Part shown: in pieces, positions 2,233-52,337 of the stretch
How the letters are laid out: each line of letters opens with the position of its first letter
How positions within the stretch are numbered: position 1 is the stretch's first letter
Assembly (NCBI RefSeq): GCF_007990755.1
Contig: NZ_BJXA01000068.1
Location: 1 to 52,337, forward strand
Length of the DNA stretch: 52,337 nucleotides
Direction of reading: 5' to 3'
Origin: Nocardia ninae NBRC 108245
GTDB lineage: Bacteria; Actinomycetota; Actinomycetes; Mycobacteriales; Mycobacteriaceae
Notes under the pieces: generated by a model
What the model was told of the DNA's origin: nothing
Seen by the model: only the letters and a program-made list of their open reading frames with translations
Database searches by the model: none
Made by a program: the position numbers and the translations under genes

Positions 2233-3576
2233 ATGACAGCAGATGTCATCGGCACTGCCGATACGGAGCCCGCCCTAGCGGACCGGAAGCCGCTGCTGCC
2301 GAGTAACGATCCGTTCCACCGCCCGCCGAAGGGTTTCGCGGCCAAGCCGCCGGGCACCATTCTGCGCAGCCGCAAGATCGAGCTCGCCCTGTTCGGTGTT
2401 GTGCCGCAGCAGGTCTCGGCCTGGCAATTGCTCTACCGCAGTTGCGATATGCACGGCACGCCGGAGGCGGCGATCACCACGGTGCTGCTGCCGTTGGACG
2501 CCGATCCACAAGAAGACCGGCCGCTGTTGGCCTTTCAGACCGCGATGGACGCGGTCACCGAGAAATGTTCCCCCTCTTACGCGTTGCGCTACGGCGCCCG
2601 CGCGCTCGGCTCGGTCACCCAGTTCGAGTGGCTGCTCGTCGCGAACGCGCTGCGCCGCGGCTGGGCCGTCAGCATCGCCGATCACGAGGGCCCGCGCGGA
2701 AACTTCGGCGCGCCACGCGAACCCGGCTATCGCTCGCTCGACGGCGTGCGGGCGGCGCAGCGGTTCGCCCCGCTCGGCCTCGGCGCGCACACACCGGTCG
2801 CGGTGTGGGGTTACTCCGGTGGCGGCATGGCCAGTGCCTGGATGGTGGAGATGGCGCCGACCTACGCGCCCGAACTCGACATCGTCGGCGCGGTGCTCGG
2901 CGCACCCGTCGGCGATCCGGGACAGGTCTTCGCCCGGCTGAACGGTTCCAGCTACGCCGGGCTGCCCGCGATCGTGATCGCGGCGCTGCGCAGGCTGTAT
3001 CCGGTGCTCGGCGCGATGCTGCAGAACGAACTCACCCTCGACGGTCGCCGTTTCGTGGCTCGTGCGGAGTCGGCGACGCCGTTCGGCGCCATCTTCGGCC
3101 TCGCCAACAAGCGCATGGACGACTACCTGAGCCGTCCGCTCGAGGAGCTGATCGCGACGCCGGAGTTCCAGGCCATGTTCGACGACCTGCGCCTGGGCAA
3201 TTCGACGCCGACCTGCCCGTTGCTCGTGGTGCAGCCGGTACACGACCAGGTGATCCACATGGACGGCATCGACGGCCAGGTGGAGCGCTACCGGCGCGGC
3301 GGCGCGGCGGTGAGCTACGTGCGCGACCGGCTCAGCGAGCATTTCTCGCTGCTGCCGCTGTCCACTCCGCTCAGCTTGGAATGGCTGGCAGACCGGCTGG
3401 CCGGGCAACCGGTGAGCGACGAGGGTGACAACACCGTCTGGTCGGTCGCCGCGTCGGTGACCGGCGCCCGCGGCCTGTACGAGATGATGGTGACCGCGGC
3501 CAAGGTCGCACTCGGCCGCCCGCTGCGACAGGAGAGCGCGCCGGTGGCCACGATCGCCCGCGCACGCGCCGCCTGA
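2233..3576 (+). CDS. LIP-family (secretory lipase) alpha/beta hydrolase
   Basis: 447-residue hydrolase of the secretory-lipase (LIP) family. The nucleophile elbow GYSGG puts the catalytic Ser at 195, with a later D (VHDQVI) and H (SEHFSLLP) in the expected order for the triad. I chose the ATG at 2233 because a GAGGAGG ribosome-binding site lies just upstream (2221-2227); an open frame extends back to 2170. No signal peptide is evident with this start, so the protein may stay inside the cell or in the envelope. Family members hydrolyse acylglycerols or esters. It lies directly upstream of trmB on the same strand. Confidence 0.9.
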   Translation: MTADVIGTADTEPALADRKPLLPSNDPFHRPPKGFAAKPPGTILRSRKIELALFGVVPQQVSAWQLLYRSCDMHGTPEAAITTVLLPLDADPQEDRPLLAFQTAMDAVTEKCSPSYALRYGARALGSVTQFEWLLVANALRRGWAVSIADHEGPRGNFGAPREPGYRSLDGVRAAQRFAPLGLGAHTPVAVWGYSGGGMASAWMVEMAPTYAPELDIVGAVLGAPVGDPGQVFARLNGSSYAGLPAIVIAALRRLYPVLGAMLQNELTLDGRRFVARAESATPFGAIFGLANKRMDDYLSRPLEELIATPEFQAMFDDLRLGNSTPTCPLLVVQPVHDQVIHMDGIDGQVERYRRGGAAVSYVRDRLSEHFSLLPLSTPLSLEWLADRLAGQPVSDEGDNTVWSVAASVTGARGLYEMMVTAAKVALGRPLRQESAPVATIARARAA

Positions 3577-48716: not shown

Positions 48717-49514
48717 ATGAAGATCCGCCGACTGGGCTGGGCAGGCGTGGAAGTCGAATTCGACGGCGCCACACTGGTGATCGACGCCGTACAGGACAGC
48801 GAGCTGCTGCGCGGTGCACTGCCGGACGGCGCGTTGACCACCCCGCAGCCCGCGAATGCCGCACTGGTCACCCACCTGCACCTCGATCACGCCGATCCCT
48901 CCGGGCTGTCGCGCATCCTGGCGGCCGACGGCATTGTGCTGCGCCCCGAGCCGATGGTGGGCAGCGGCGACGATCTCGCGTGGACCGCCGCAGCCGAAAA
49001 GGGCTTCGCCGCACACGATCTGCCGACCAGGGTGATGACGGAGTGGGCAACCACCGCCATCGGCCCGTTCGACGTGACCGCGGTACCCGCCGTCGACGGA
49101 CTCGGCGACCCACAGCTGAACTGGGTCGTCGGCGCCGGCGGCCACCGGATCTTCCACGGCGGCGACACGCTCTTCCACGGCATGTGGTGGCTCATCGCCC
49201 GCCGCTGCGGCCCGTTCGATGTCGCGTTCCTACCGATAAACGGTGCGGCAGTGGACTTTCCACACTTGCAACCGGCAAGCCCGTTGCCCGCAGTGCTCAC
49301 GCCGGAGCAGGCCGTGCTGGCGGGGCACCTACTCGGCGCACGTACTGTCGTTCCGATCCACTTCGGCTTGGACCGGCCCCCGTACTACGTGGAGGTCGAC
49401 GATTCGCTGGCCGAGTTCCGCGCCGCCGCTGCGGATCTCGGTGTGCACACCACTGTGCTGGCACCTGGTGAATCGCTGCAACTCTGCGATATGGCAACGA
49501 ACCGGAGCGAATAG
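48717..49514 (+). CDS. Metallo-beta-lactamase-fold hydrolase
   Basis: 265 residues. The metal-binding HLHLDHAD motif, a later HGGD (FHGGDTLFHGMWW) and the C-terminal PIHFG give the ligand set of the UlaG-like L-ascorbate lactonase/RomA-type branch. Probably a cytoplasmic lactonase or phosphodiesterase-like enzyme. GAAGGA precedes the ATG. Transcription probably starts at a palindrome-containing promoter shared with the divergent symporter. Confidence 0.9.
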   Translation: MKIRRLGWAGVEVEFDGATLVIDAVQDSELLRGALPDGALTTPQPANAALVTHLHLDHADPSGLSRILAADGIVLRPEPMVGSGDDLAWTAAAEKGFAAHDLPTRVMTEWATTAIGPFDVTAVPAVDGLGDPQLNWVVGAGGHRIFHGGDTLFHGMWWLIARRCGPFDVAFLPINGAAVDFPHLQPASPLPAVLTPEQAVLAGHLLGARTVVPIHFGLDRPPYYVEVDDSLAEFRAAAADLGVHTTVLAPGESLQLCDMATNRSE

Positions 49515-49564
49515 GCCCTGCTCACGGATGCACGGCGAATAAGCGTGGCACACGGCGGTACCCG

Positions 49565-49918
49565 CTATGAGCGTCTGCGGAGCAACAACTTTCGGGTGCG
49601 AGAAGAAGCGGCGCCGCTGAGCGCAACGCCCACGTACTCGGCGAAAGCCGTTGCGTCCGCGGCGGTCGACGTCTTGGGCTTGTCCGCGGCCCAAGCTATG
49701 AAGCGCGCGGTGAAGTCCGCACCGCAGGCGTGCGCCAGCAATGGGAAGCGGCGCGCGACCTCGCCTGCGCGTTTGCGCAGCAACGCCCGTGCCGCCGCGG
49801 CGACGGCTTCGGTATCGAAACCGTCCGGCACCGGGCTCCCCGCCACCAGTGCCCGAACCAACGCCGCCTGGCGCTCGGCGAGCAGAGCGGTATCGACATC
49901 CAGCGGCTGCGGATTCAT
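49565..49918 (-). CDS. Small partner-like protein of the DUF692 enzyme (SCO6045-like)
   Basis: 117 residues, helical. The core (AAARALLRKRAGEVARRFPL, then LAHACGADFTARFIAWA) has the pattern of short C-terminal domains encoded beside DUF692 enzymes, and loosely recalls DUF2063/MbnC-type partners with a YP..RxLxG..F rhythm. Such partners position the substrate for the oxygenase. The longer open frame to 50515 is a shadow of the DUF692 gene. The ATG at 49918 overlaps the DUF692 stop (ATGA), showing coupling. Family assignment is by pattern and context. Confidence 0.75.
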   Translation of the reverse strand: MNPQPLDVDTALLAERQAALVRALVAGSPVPDGFDTEAVAAAARALLRKRAGEVARRFPLLAHACGADFTARFIAWAADKPKTSTAADATAFAEYVGVALSGAASSRTRKLLLRRRS

Positions 49919-50787
49919 GTGCGCGCCGAACGCGCGCGTCCGGTGATCAATGGTCGGTGCGCGGCCGCGGCGATCGCATCGAGTTCGTCGAGGAGCTCGG
50001 CGGCGGGTGGATAGTTGCCGTCGCGTTCCAGCATCAGCGGCACCGGGTGCATGTCGGTGAAAGCACCTACGAGAGCGAGGACTTCGGCGGGGATCGGATC
50101 GGTGTGCGTGTCGTGGTAGCGGCCGTCGGCATCGTGCCCGCCCGCGACGTGACAGTAGGCAACGCGATCCGTCGGCAGCCGCAGCAATTCGGTAAGCGGA
50201 TCGCGGGCGCGGTTGCGGGCGTTCGCGTAGACGTTGGCGATGTCGACCAGCAGATAGACGCCGGTCCGGTCGACGAGCTCGGCGAGGAACTCCGAGTCGG
50301 TGTATTCGTCGTCGGGCCAGTCGAACAGTGCCGCGATGTTCTCCACCGCGAGCGGCACATCGAGCACCGCCTGGGTGCGGGATATGTTGCGCACCAACAC
50401 ATCCAGCGCCGCCTTGGAACGCGGCACCGGCAGCAGATGCCCTGCCTCGACACCACCCGCGCGCACGAAAGCGACATGCTCGCTCACCAGCGGCGCACCG
50501 AGCGCTTCGGCGCACGCGGCGAGATGCTCGATCCGGTGCTCGTGCAACGGTTCGGCGCCACCGAGCGACAACGAAATACCGTGCGGCACAATCACGGTCC
50601 CGCCCGCGCGCAAGGCTGCAAGTTCGGCGGGAATCGTGAGCTCCGACCTGCCGAGCAGCCGCCGCCGGACCGGTAGCGACTCCGCGATCACCTCCGCGAA
50701 CCCCAACCCGTCCAGCTCCGCGAGCACGCCGCAGATCTCCGGCCGCCAGCCGATCCCGAGCGCGCCGTCCGGCAGGGGTCCGCTCAT
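49915..50787 (-). CDS. DUF692 (MNIO) multinuclear iron-dependent oxidative enzyme
   Basis: 290-residue TIM-barrel protein of the DUF692 family (relatives: MbnB of methanobactin, TglH of 3-thiaglutamate). Metal-ligand candidates appear in the family order: VPHGISLSLGG (His), LVSEHVAF (Glu/His), LAVENIAAL (Glu), LLVDIANVYANA (Asp/Asn), YCHVAGGH (His), DTHTDPIP (Asp/His) and LMLERDGNYPP (Glu/Asp). Known members oxidise Cys or neighbouring residues of ribosomal peptides. Here the gene sits between a Gly/Cys-tailed membrane protein (25 nt upstream) and a small partner-like gene (4-nt overlap). Start chosen at 50787; the frame is open further but low in complexity. Confidence 0.92.
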   Translation of the reverse strand: MSGPLPDGALGIGWRPEICGVLAELDGLGFAEVIAESLPVRRRLLGRSELTIPAELAALRAGGTVIVPHGISLSLGGAEPLHEHRIEHLAACAEALGAPLVSEHVAFVRAGGVEAGHLLPVPRSKAALDVLVRNISRTQAVLDVPLAVENIAALFDWPDDEYTDSEFLAELVDRTGVYLLVDIANVYANARNRARDPLTELLRLPTDRVAYCHVAGGHDADGRYHDTHTDPIPAEVLALVGAFTDMHPVPLMLERDGNYPPAAELLDELDAIAAAAHRPLITGRARSART

Positions 50788-50812
50788 CCGCGGGCTCCGG
50801 CCGCTGCCGTGG

Positions 50813-51712
50813 TCAGCCGCCACAGCCGCCGCCACCACCCCCGCAGCCGCCACCTCCGCCACCGCCGTCACCACCACCACCGCTACCGCCGTCGCCGCCC
50901 GACGAGCTCGGTGGCTCGACGGCACTCGCGAGACCGGGGTCCAGCGACAACAGCGCGGCGCCGCCGAAGATCGCCGCGGCAAGTGCGGCACTTTCGGCGC
51001 CGTACGTGGCATAAGCAGGCGAATTGGACGGCCGCAGATGCGCATTGCTACTGGTCGCGTTCTTGCGGGCCAGCCTGCCGAGTGGTGTCAGCCGCGGTTT
51101 GGCCACCAAGAAGAAATAGCAGAACGCCTGCACCACCAGGGCGAGCACGAGGAACGCGACCGGGTTGTGGTTCAGCGTCCCTGCGACGAACCGCACCACA
51201 CCGACCGCTCCGACGATCAGCACCGGCAGCCCGGCGTCCCGCAGGCTGCGCCGAAAAGCCGCGTCGGGAAAGTAGCCGCGCTTGATCATCGAGTCGCGCA
51301 GCGGACCGAGCGCCGCCGCCGAGCCTGCGGTCAGCGCGGCGACCGTCGGCTTGGCCCCGGCGGCGATCCGTTCGTAGATCGACCGGGTGAACGGATCCAG
51401 TTGCCTGCGGTCCTCGGCGTTCAGCGGCCTCGCCGGCGCCGCGGCGGAGTCGATGAGGTCGTGGCTGCGCAGCCGGGCCAGCGCGGTCAGCGCCGCCCGG
51501 CGGTCGTCGAACAGCATGGCGACCTCAGGCAGTGAGAGCTCTGTGCCCGGTCGTTCGATACCGCGGGTATCGACGGCCCCGCGGGTCACCCGCAGCCGCA
51601 TCCACAACCCGAGCAGCACCGCGATGGCCACGCACGGCCAGTACAACGCCATGAAATCCGGTCCGGAGATCCCCCAGGTATCGCCCGCGGCCATCAGGTC
51701 CAACACAGTCAT
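50813..51712 (-). CDS. TIGR04222-type membrane protein with Gly/Cys-rich C-terminal tail
   Basis: 299 residues. One N-terminal membrane helix (ALYWPCVAIAVLLGLWMRL), a soluble helical region (about 55-150: VAMLFDDRRAALTALARLRS), a helix pair near 155-205 (LPVLIVGAVGVVRFV, AFLVLALVVQAFCYFFLV), a further segment near 245, then a Ser/Gly/Asp linker and a tail of glycines. The tail holds two cysteines (C290 and C297, separated by six Gly) and ends CGG. This is the near-uncomplex TIGR04222 family. It heads the operon with the DUF692 gene, which makes its Cys tail the natural candidate substrate. The ATG at 51712 has GGTAGAG upstream. Confidence 0.88.
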   Translation of the reverse strand: MTVLDLMAAGDTWGISGPDFMALYWPCVAIAVLLGLWMRLRVTRGAVDTRGIERPGTELSLPEVAMLFDDRRAALTALARLRSHDLIDSAAAPARPLNAEDRRQLDPFTRSIYERIAAGAKPTVAALTAGSAAALGPLRDSMIKRGYFPDAAFRRSLRDAGLPVLIVGAVGVVRFVAGTLNHNPVAFLVLALVVQAFCYFFLVAKPRLTPLGRLARKNATSSNAHLRPSNSPAYATYGAESAALAAAIFGGAALLSLDPGLASAVEPPSSSGGDGGSGGGGDGGGGGGGCGGGGGGCGG

Positions 51713-51866
51713 CTCTACCCCGAAATCACGCCGGTACTGCAACGCCCCAAGTATGGACCGCCGGTAACGATGCCGACAGGGTTGGACCCGAAACGTAACT
51801 CGGCCGATCTTTCACACCCGTCGCCACAGCCCTGTGGATAGCTGGGGATGATTCGATGGTGTGGTG

Positions 51867-52241
51867 ATGCGACGCAAGTACCAGGTGAACGCCGCACCCG
51901 CACGGGGCACCGCGAGCCGCGTGTTGTTCCGCCGCACCCTCGGCAAGCGCGAGCTCATGCTGCGCCAGACGATCATCGAGCCGGGCGGCAGCAGCGGCTG
52001 GCACTTTCACGACGGCACCTTGTTCGTGCTGGTCACCAAGGGCGTGCTCGACCATCCCGGCGCGGACTGCGCGCCGGTGACCTATCGCCGTGGCCGATTC
52101 TTCCGCGAACCGAGCGGCCCAAATTATCCCCACGTCGCACGTAATCGCGGGTCGGTCGCCGTAAAACTCTGCGTGCTCTACCTCAACCCGGTCGGGAGTC
52201 CGCTGTCCCGCAGCGTGCCCGCACCGGACTGCGCCGAGTAG
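51867..52241 (+). CDS. Cupin-fold protein
   Basis: 124 residues, one cupin barrel. Motif 1 is WHFHDGTLFVLVTKGVLDHP (HxH followed by Gly) and motif 2 is degenerate (GPNYPHVARNRG, one His). Probably binds a metal or small ligand; no enzymatic role is assigned. Three in-phase starts lie close together (GTG 51861, GTG 51864, ATG 51867); the ATG is chosen without a decisive ribosome-binding site. It is divergent from the TIGR04222 gene, so the two share a 154-bp promoter region. Confidence 0.85.
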   Translation: MRRKYQVNAAPARGTASRVLFRRTLGKRELMLRQTIIEPGGSSGWHFHDGTLFVLVTKGVLDHPGADCAPVTYRRGRFFREPSGPNYPHVARNRGSVAVKLCVLYLNPVGSPLSRSVPAPDCAE

Positions 52242-52244
52242 CGG

Positions 52245-52337
52245 TCAGGTCGCGGGCTGGCAGGCGTCGCGCAGCGAACAAGCACCGCAGGCACTGCCGC
52301 AGCCGCCGACTTCGGCGGGCGGGGCGATGGCGGCGGC
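52245..52337 (-). CDS. Partial C-terminus of a Cys-rich protein (runs off the window)
   Basis: A leftward frame enters from the right edge and stops at a TGA at 52245-52247, giving 30 visible residues. The end, GGCGSACGACSLRDACQPAT, carries four cysteines spaced CX3CX2CX5C, compatible with an iron-sulfur or zinc site. Its stop lies 3 nt after the stop of the cupin gene. Coding is inferred from the striking Cys pattern and tight convergence; family unknown. Confidence 0.5.
   Translation of the reverse strand, partial: AAAIAPPAEVGGCGSACGACSLRDACQPAT

Follow-up and report, generated by a model that had tools for sequence, protein, structure and literature searches.

A cysteine-tailed TIGR04222 membrane protein as putative substrate of an adjacent MNIO enzyme in Nocardia ninae

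The window analysed here, a stretch of 52,337 nucleotides from Nocardia ninae NBRC 108245 (NZ_BJXA01000068.1), contains three coupled genes for a TIGR04222 membrane protein, a DUF692/MNIO enzyme and a small third protein. The trio seems likely to constitute a protein-modification operon, in which the MNIO and its partner would oxidise cysteines in the tail of the membrane protein; that this tail is an MNIO substrate at all is somewhat better founded and quite probable. The arrangement exceeds chance and recurs over 28-29 labelled genus groups (an upper figure, as L073 is miscoded for genus and named genera may duplicate coded ones). The locus is a further case of a hypothesis already in print, by which systems of this kind were predicted: Antoine et al. 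2025 (PMC12452194), in the portion of the text available, propose subsets of TIGR04222 membrane proteins as MNIO substrates via C-proximal Cys-rich segments. An earlier note on this DNA had rightly supposed that the family-level association might have been noted before. In the literature searched, no experiment on the modification of a TIGR04222 tail was found.

All three genes are situated on the minus strand, coupled as the earlier note had described them. The TIGR04222 gene (50813..51712, 299 aa, ATG start) is followed after 25 nt by the MNIO gene (49915..50787, 290 aa), which overlaps the gene of the third protein (49565..49918, 117 aa) by 4 nt (ATGA). Since a divergent cupin-like frame lies about 148 nt upstream of the trio and a convergent metallo-beta-lactamase-fold frame 50 nt downstream, little space is left for an overlooked precursor, and an Rfam search of positions 49000-52337 matched no RNA element. 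The assembly containing the locus comprises 9.7 Mb in 204 contigs, and the MNIO is 94% identical to one from Nocardia suismassiliense.

The membrane protein matches the NCBIfam model TIGR04222 with 111.9 bits (curated cut-off 43) over profile positions 1-228 of 229 and hence belongs to this family. Hydrophobic segments are found near residues 20-38, 160-177, 183-204 and 235-257, and the charge bias, following the positive-inside rule, predicts that the folded middle domain is located in the cytosol. The Gly/Ser-rich C-terminal tail (residues 265-299, 50816..50920, minus strand) contains C290 (codon 50843-50845) and C297 (codon 50822-50824) and ends in CGG, as had been read from the sequence before; C297, G298 and G299 are invariant across the 52 rows of an alignment. 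The AlphaFold2 model has a mean pLDDT of 88.0, with values below 50 across most of residues 270-297. A Foldseek search with this model gave no match at E<=0.001 (the VIA rows held common helical bundles only), and a PDB sequence search with the TIGR04222 domain yielded no convincing relative.

The enzyme scores 250.7 bits against Pfam PF05114 (MbnB_TglH_ChrH; gathering cut-off 25), which places it in the MNIO superfamily. The claim that its ligand residues are apparently intact is borne out: at the positions equivalent to the nine iron ligands of TglH (mapped after PMC10880893, as far as its available text goes), it possesses H69, H104, E149, D182, N185, H213, D226, H228 and E254, i.e., all nine. 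The same nine are kept in 171 MNIOs of TIGR04222 loci, apart from a single gap at the final one. Concerning narrower families, the best NCBIfam match is BufB (NF050167) with 171.6 bits, below the curated cut-off of 310, such that the enzyme does not count as a BufB; the models of ChrH (59.8, cut-off 600) and MbnB (26.1, cut-off 325) score still lower. Beside the TIGR04222 gene, the MNIO is broken into several frames in L116 (genome G033) and L117 (G247); in L117 it is split over three frames, and a single tail Cys remains in the TIGR04222 protein. In L236, from a Nocardia carnea draft, TIGR04222 protein and MNIO lie in one open frame, by fusion or by sequencing error.

The third protein, which the earlier note had called partner-like, is very probably the partner of the MNIO. 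Its gene directly follows the MNIO gene or is joined to it, which corresponds to PME-type 2 partners, and the coding sequences of MNIO and partner form a single open frame in 17 loci (18 with L117, whose MNIO is split), 16 of these 17 in genomes of the Streptomyces-like genus g78 and one in Nocardia stercoris. At E<=0.001 it matches no Pfam or NCBIfam family; the DUF2063 signature of PME-type 1 partners is thus absent. For a PME-type 2 partner, a fold resembling DUF2063 but lacking its signature would be expected; the predicted model is all-helical, with MbnC, itself an MNIO partner, as the top, weak fold match in the PDB. A PDB sequence search with the partner profile brought up no convincing relative, and no plasmid relatives of the protein were found.

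In 298 genomes of the order, a PF05114 MNIO was present in 106, a TIGR04222 protein over the cut-off in 119 and both in 101, which leaves, with the genome lists matched by eye, 18 genomes with TIGR04222 only and five with MNIO only; 17 of the 18 belong to family f16 and contain short matches, the other being G203. Among 231 genomes of the window's own family, 47 possess a TIGR04222 protein over the cut-off, and 46 of these also an MNIO, the exception being G807 (MNIO status was taken from the order-wide search for eight of the 47 and from a separate search for 39, of which 38 were positive). These order and family counts take no account of kinship. In g78, an MNIO was found in 78 of 81 sampled genomes.

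Gene neighbourhoods were scanned with profiles grown from the window proteins in 270 loci plus the window; as the loci were picked for holding TIGR04222 or MNIO (the order sample supplied 120, g78 another 40, chosen partly for oddness, and the nearest named MNIO relatives 80), percentages among them are not population estimates. An MNIO was present in 198 loci, 172 of them also with a TIGR04222 gene, situated upstream of the MNIO in 158 and downstream in 14. After removal of five loci whose MNIO is identical to another, 193 MNIO loci remain, 167 with TIGR04222, and the co-occurrence of all three genes suggested for checking was found in 165 of these 167 (with repeats 170 of 172, the partner being absent from L115 and L200). 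The partner also occurs in 19 of 26 MNIO loci lacking a TIGR04222 match and in none of the seven loci L141-L147, whose MNIOs are of another type and lie on one side of a single branch in a quick tree, with the remaining MNIOs on the opposite side; a long-branch warning applies to this tree. Of twenty further loci of the family, 18 contained an MNIO (nine repeating named loci, nine new), and in all 18 a partner was present together with a TIGR04222 gene encoding at least two tail Cys. Near 25 of the 198 MNIO loci there is an MsrB-like frame, and near 28 a HemQ-like one (in part L032-L060, g78 loci; both names given by sequence reading).

A dedicated Cys-containing precursor peptide nearby, which would have spoken against the tail, was not found conserved across genera in either of two frame clusterings. 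When frames of at least 70 aa from 44 representative loci were clustered, the trio families and shadow frames reached 28-29 genus groups, and any other family among the top 25 clusters at most eight; Cys-containing frames of 20-110 aa, taken from 70 loci at distances of up to 1.2 kb from the trio, formed no cluster beyond Nocardia. A zinc-ribbon-like protein with the motif CPVCEWQE was considered as an alternative substrate and rejected as not specific, being present in six of 22 g78 loci, one of them beside a Cys-tailed TIGR04222 gene. Tail patterns at the DNA level recovered only one or two of nine known g78 tails.

Tail cysteines were counted leaving out five duplicate loci, L236, matches below 50 bits and frames lacking a stop. 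With repeats removed, 160 of 166 MNIO loci have two or more Cys in the TIGR04222 tail nearest to the MNIO, the six others being L117 and five g78 loci; the objection foreseen in the earlier note, that TIGR04222 homologues beside DUF692 genes might mostly lack them, thus did not hold. Among TIGR04222 genes that share the strand of an MNIO and lie at most 7 kb from it, 198 of 219 (192 of 213 without repeats) encode at least two tail Cys, i.e., 184 of 200 full-length and 14 of 19 partial matches. For TIGR04222 proteins located elsewhere in MNIO genomes the figure is only 19 of 40, and in MNIO-less genomes four of 19, all four from f16 (among partial matches of MNIO-less genomes, four of 17 have two tail Cys). 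The MNIO-less genomes G203, G629 and G807 contain TIGR04222 proteins lacking any tail Cys. Gly-rich tails ending in Cys occur on TIGR04222-like proteins of MNIO-less f16 genomes (L160, L167, L168, L169), and in L033, L038, L039 and L043 TIGR04222 genes are arranged in tandem, one copy lacking tail Cys and its neighbours having several. An independent-pairs test of MNIO adjacency against tail Cys was not significant (four pairs on supported branches, median p 1), few changes being countable; the case therefore rests on co-occurrence, on the frames common to MNIO and partner and on the failure of any other conserved substrate gene to appear.

Loci in which the MNIO stands apart from such a tail are of several kinds. 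Twelve odd-looking g78 genomes were rechecked, all with an MNIO: six gave no TIGR04222 match, G660 and G608 contain Cys-less ones only, G453 and G659 have at most one tail Cys, and G609 and G592 possess a TIGR04222 protein with at least two tail Cys away from the MNIO. MNIO and partner occur without a TIGR04222 gene at the locus in L182-L188 of g78. TIGR04222 genes with at least two tail Cys lie farther off in the genome for Rhodococcus L260, L261, L263 and L268 (6.7 kb from the MNIO in L268) and for Actinomadura L286, and the genome of L288, which has no TIGR04222 match, contains a frame with a seven-Cys tail directly upstream of the MNIO. In L148 (G073; 2687-3181, minus strand), the position of the TIGR04222 protein, after MNIO and partner, is occupied by a small membrane protein that has one helix, a Ser/Gly tail containing eight Cys and no match to TIGR04222; its charges would place the tail inside, and it is a possible minimal substrate. 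Five loci at contig edges (L277, L291, L296, L297, L300) were kept out of this judgement.

The cysteines of the tails follow a distinct spacing, which was determined on 198 proteins with 191 different tails (a selection older than the counts without repeats; the tails are related, such that counts are not independent). Among 649 Cys-Cys intervals, an interval of 1 never occurs (15.5% expected in shuffled tails) and an interval of 2 occurs once (13.5% in shuffled tails), whereas the commonest interval is 6 (33%). The residue before Cys is Gly or Ser in 805 of 837 listed cases, that after it is Gly in 685 of 840, and CGG forms the end of 134 of 164 nearest tails. Judged from the sequences, this rule fits single cysteines handled one by one better than a CxxC-type site.

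We infer oxidation of the tail from the co-occurrence, from this Cys pattern and from the lack of another conserved substrate gene. MNIO and small partner would form a cytosolic complex that oxidises isolated Cys of the disordered C-terminal tail, each within a [Gly/Ser]-Cys-Gly unit. By weak analogy with bufferin-type MNIOs, the likeliest product would be a four-electron-oxidised Cys heterocycle, of which 5-thiooxazole can be named tentatively. For an MNIO that forms 5-thiooxazole, a preference for a Cys-Gly dyad has been reported, its usual substrates carrying Lys beside Cys (PMC13097082, available excerpts), unlike TIGR04222 tails, from which Lys is nearly absent. Following the positive-inside rule, the tail may be situated outside the cell beside the membrane and might, speculatively, act as a tethered brush binding a soft metal, perhaps copper, a role for which we consider copper doubtful.

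The same counts have to be weighed against the reading that MNIO and partner act mainly on an unlinked substrate, the tail working unmodified, in metal binding or disulfides, as nothing but an old operon neighbour. Ten of the 12 rechecked g78 genomes keep an MNIO in spite of lacking a TIGR04222 protein with at least two tail Cys, and in the 26 MNIO loci lacking a TIGR04222 match the iron ligands are likewise kept, bar single exceptions at four positions, both of which agree with such a substrate. Elsewhere, however, the MNIO is nearly always accompanied by a Cys-tailed TIGR04222 gene (the 160 of 166 loci above), no other gene recurs as widely, and a spacing that never puts two cysteines side by side and only once at a distance of two would be odd for an ordinary metal site, such that this reading appears unlikely. 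The tail as best substrate candidate, put forward in the earlier note, is thus partly upheld: neither the counts of Cys tails nor the search for a cross-genus precursor refuted it, and the partner reading has gained strength, whereas the modification is deduced, the ten g78 genomes speak against it, and the same hypothesis was in print before.

Two further readings concern the fate of the tail and the meaning of the gene order. Characterised MNIO substrates are mostly RiPP precursors according to the available text of PMC12452194, and a TIGR04222 protein was once termed a predicted ribosomal peptide (PMC5183585, in the passage available), such that the tail might be modified and then released as a free peptide, the membrane-bound remainder of the protein serving as the very large leader of a RiPP; this is improbable, however, as neither a protease nor an exporter, nor indeed any other gene, was found to accompany the trio widely. 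Gene order that is simply inherited, the genes having no functional connection, would account for an arrangement common to related genomes and for the tree-aware adjacency test not being significant, yet it is very hard to reconcile with MNIO and partner in a single frame in 17 loci, with TIGR04222 genes downstream rather than upstream in 14 of 172, and with the eight-Cys-tailed protein in place of TIGR04222 in L148.

Under the preferred reading of the trio as a modification operon, the overall picture, which we hold tentatively and at well below even confidence, might be that of a widespread, housekeeping-like actinobacterial modification system instead of a secreted natural product, with MNIO and near-constant partner converting the spaced Cys array of a resident membrane protein into a membrane-tethered extracellular brush of Cys-derived heterocycles, which would serve as a buffer for copper or another soft metal; a single enzyme would act on several paralogues of TIGR04222, including those encoded at a distance. 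Should the tail be modified, the reach of MNIO chemistry would widen from small secreted peptides to proteins integral to the membranes of soil-dwelling and antibiotic-producing actinobacteria. For experiments, concrete substrates and controls are at hand in the spacing of the Cys, in a partner that is nearly always present and in the losses that have occurred naturally.

The locus is most similar to the clusters described in PMC12452194, with the same families and the same proposal of modification at C-proximal Cys; the MNIOs of those clusters appear to use PME-type 2 partners, and the PME-type 2 model B given there (Micromonospora matsumotoense, 158 residues) corresponds to the third protein of L299 both in source species and in length. 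Despite this similarity there are differences, as far as the available text of that source goes: more than a quarter of its TIGR04222 proteins lack such Cys and many clusters seem to be partner-less, PME-type 2 being found in at least 10% of them, whereas the partner is present here in 165 of 167 selected loci; large periplasmic domains are assumed there, whereas here a cytosolic position of the folded middle domain is predicted from charge bias. With bufferins and captophorins (BufB, FonB, HvfB with PME-type 1), the locus shares BufB as best NCBIfam match and repeated single Cys, often as Cys-Gly, but the MNIO stays below the BufB cut-off (171.6 against 310), the partner lacks the DUF2063 signature, and the putative substrate is an integral membrane protein with a tail nearly devoid of Lys. 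As is proposed for the trio, MelH of the ChrH/MelH type acts with a small partner, MelHc, on a C-terminal Cys motif, that of a 34-kDa protein (PMC12636315, available part), whereas the motif there is CPACGMG, the product is macrocyclic, and the ChrH score here is 59.8 against 600. Methanobactin synthesis by MbnB-MbnC likewise combines an MNIO with a small partner, MbnC being the top, weak fold match of the third protein; it differs in its short precursor peptide and oxazolone-thioamide product (PMC13174530, available part) and in the MbnB score, 26.1 here against 325.
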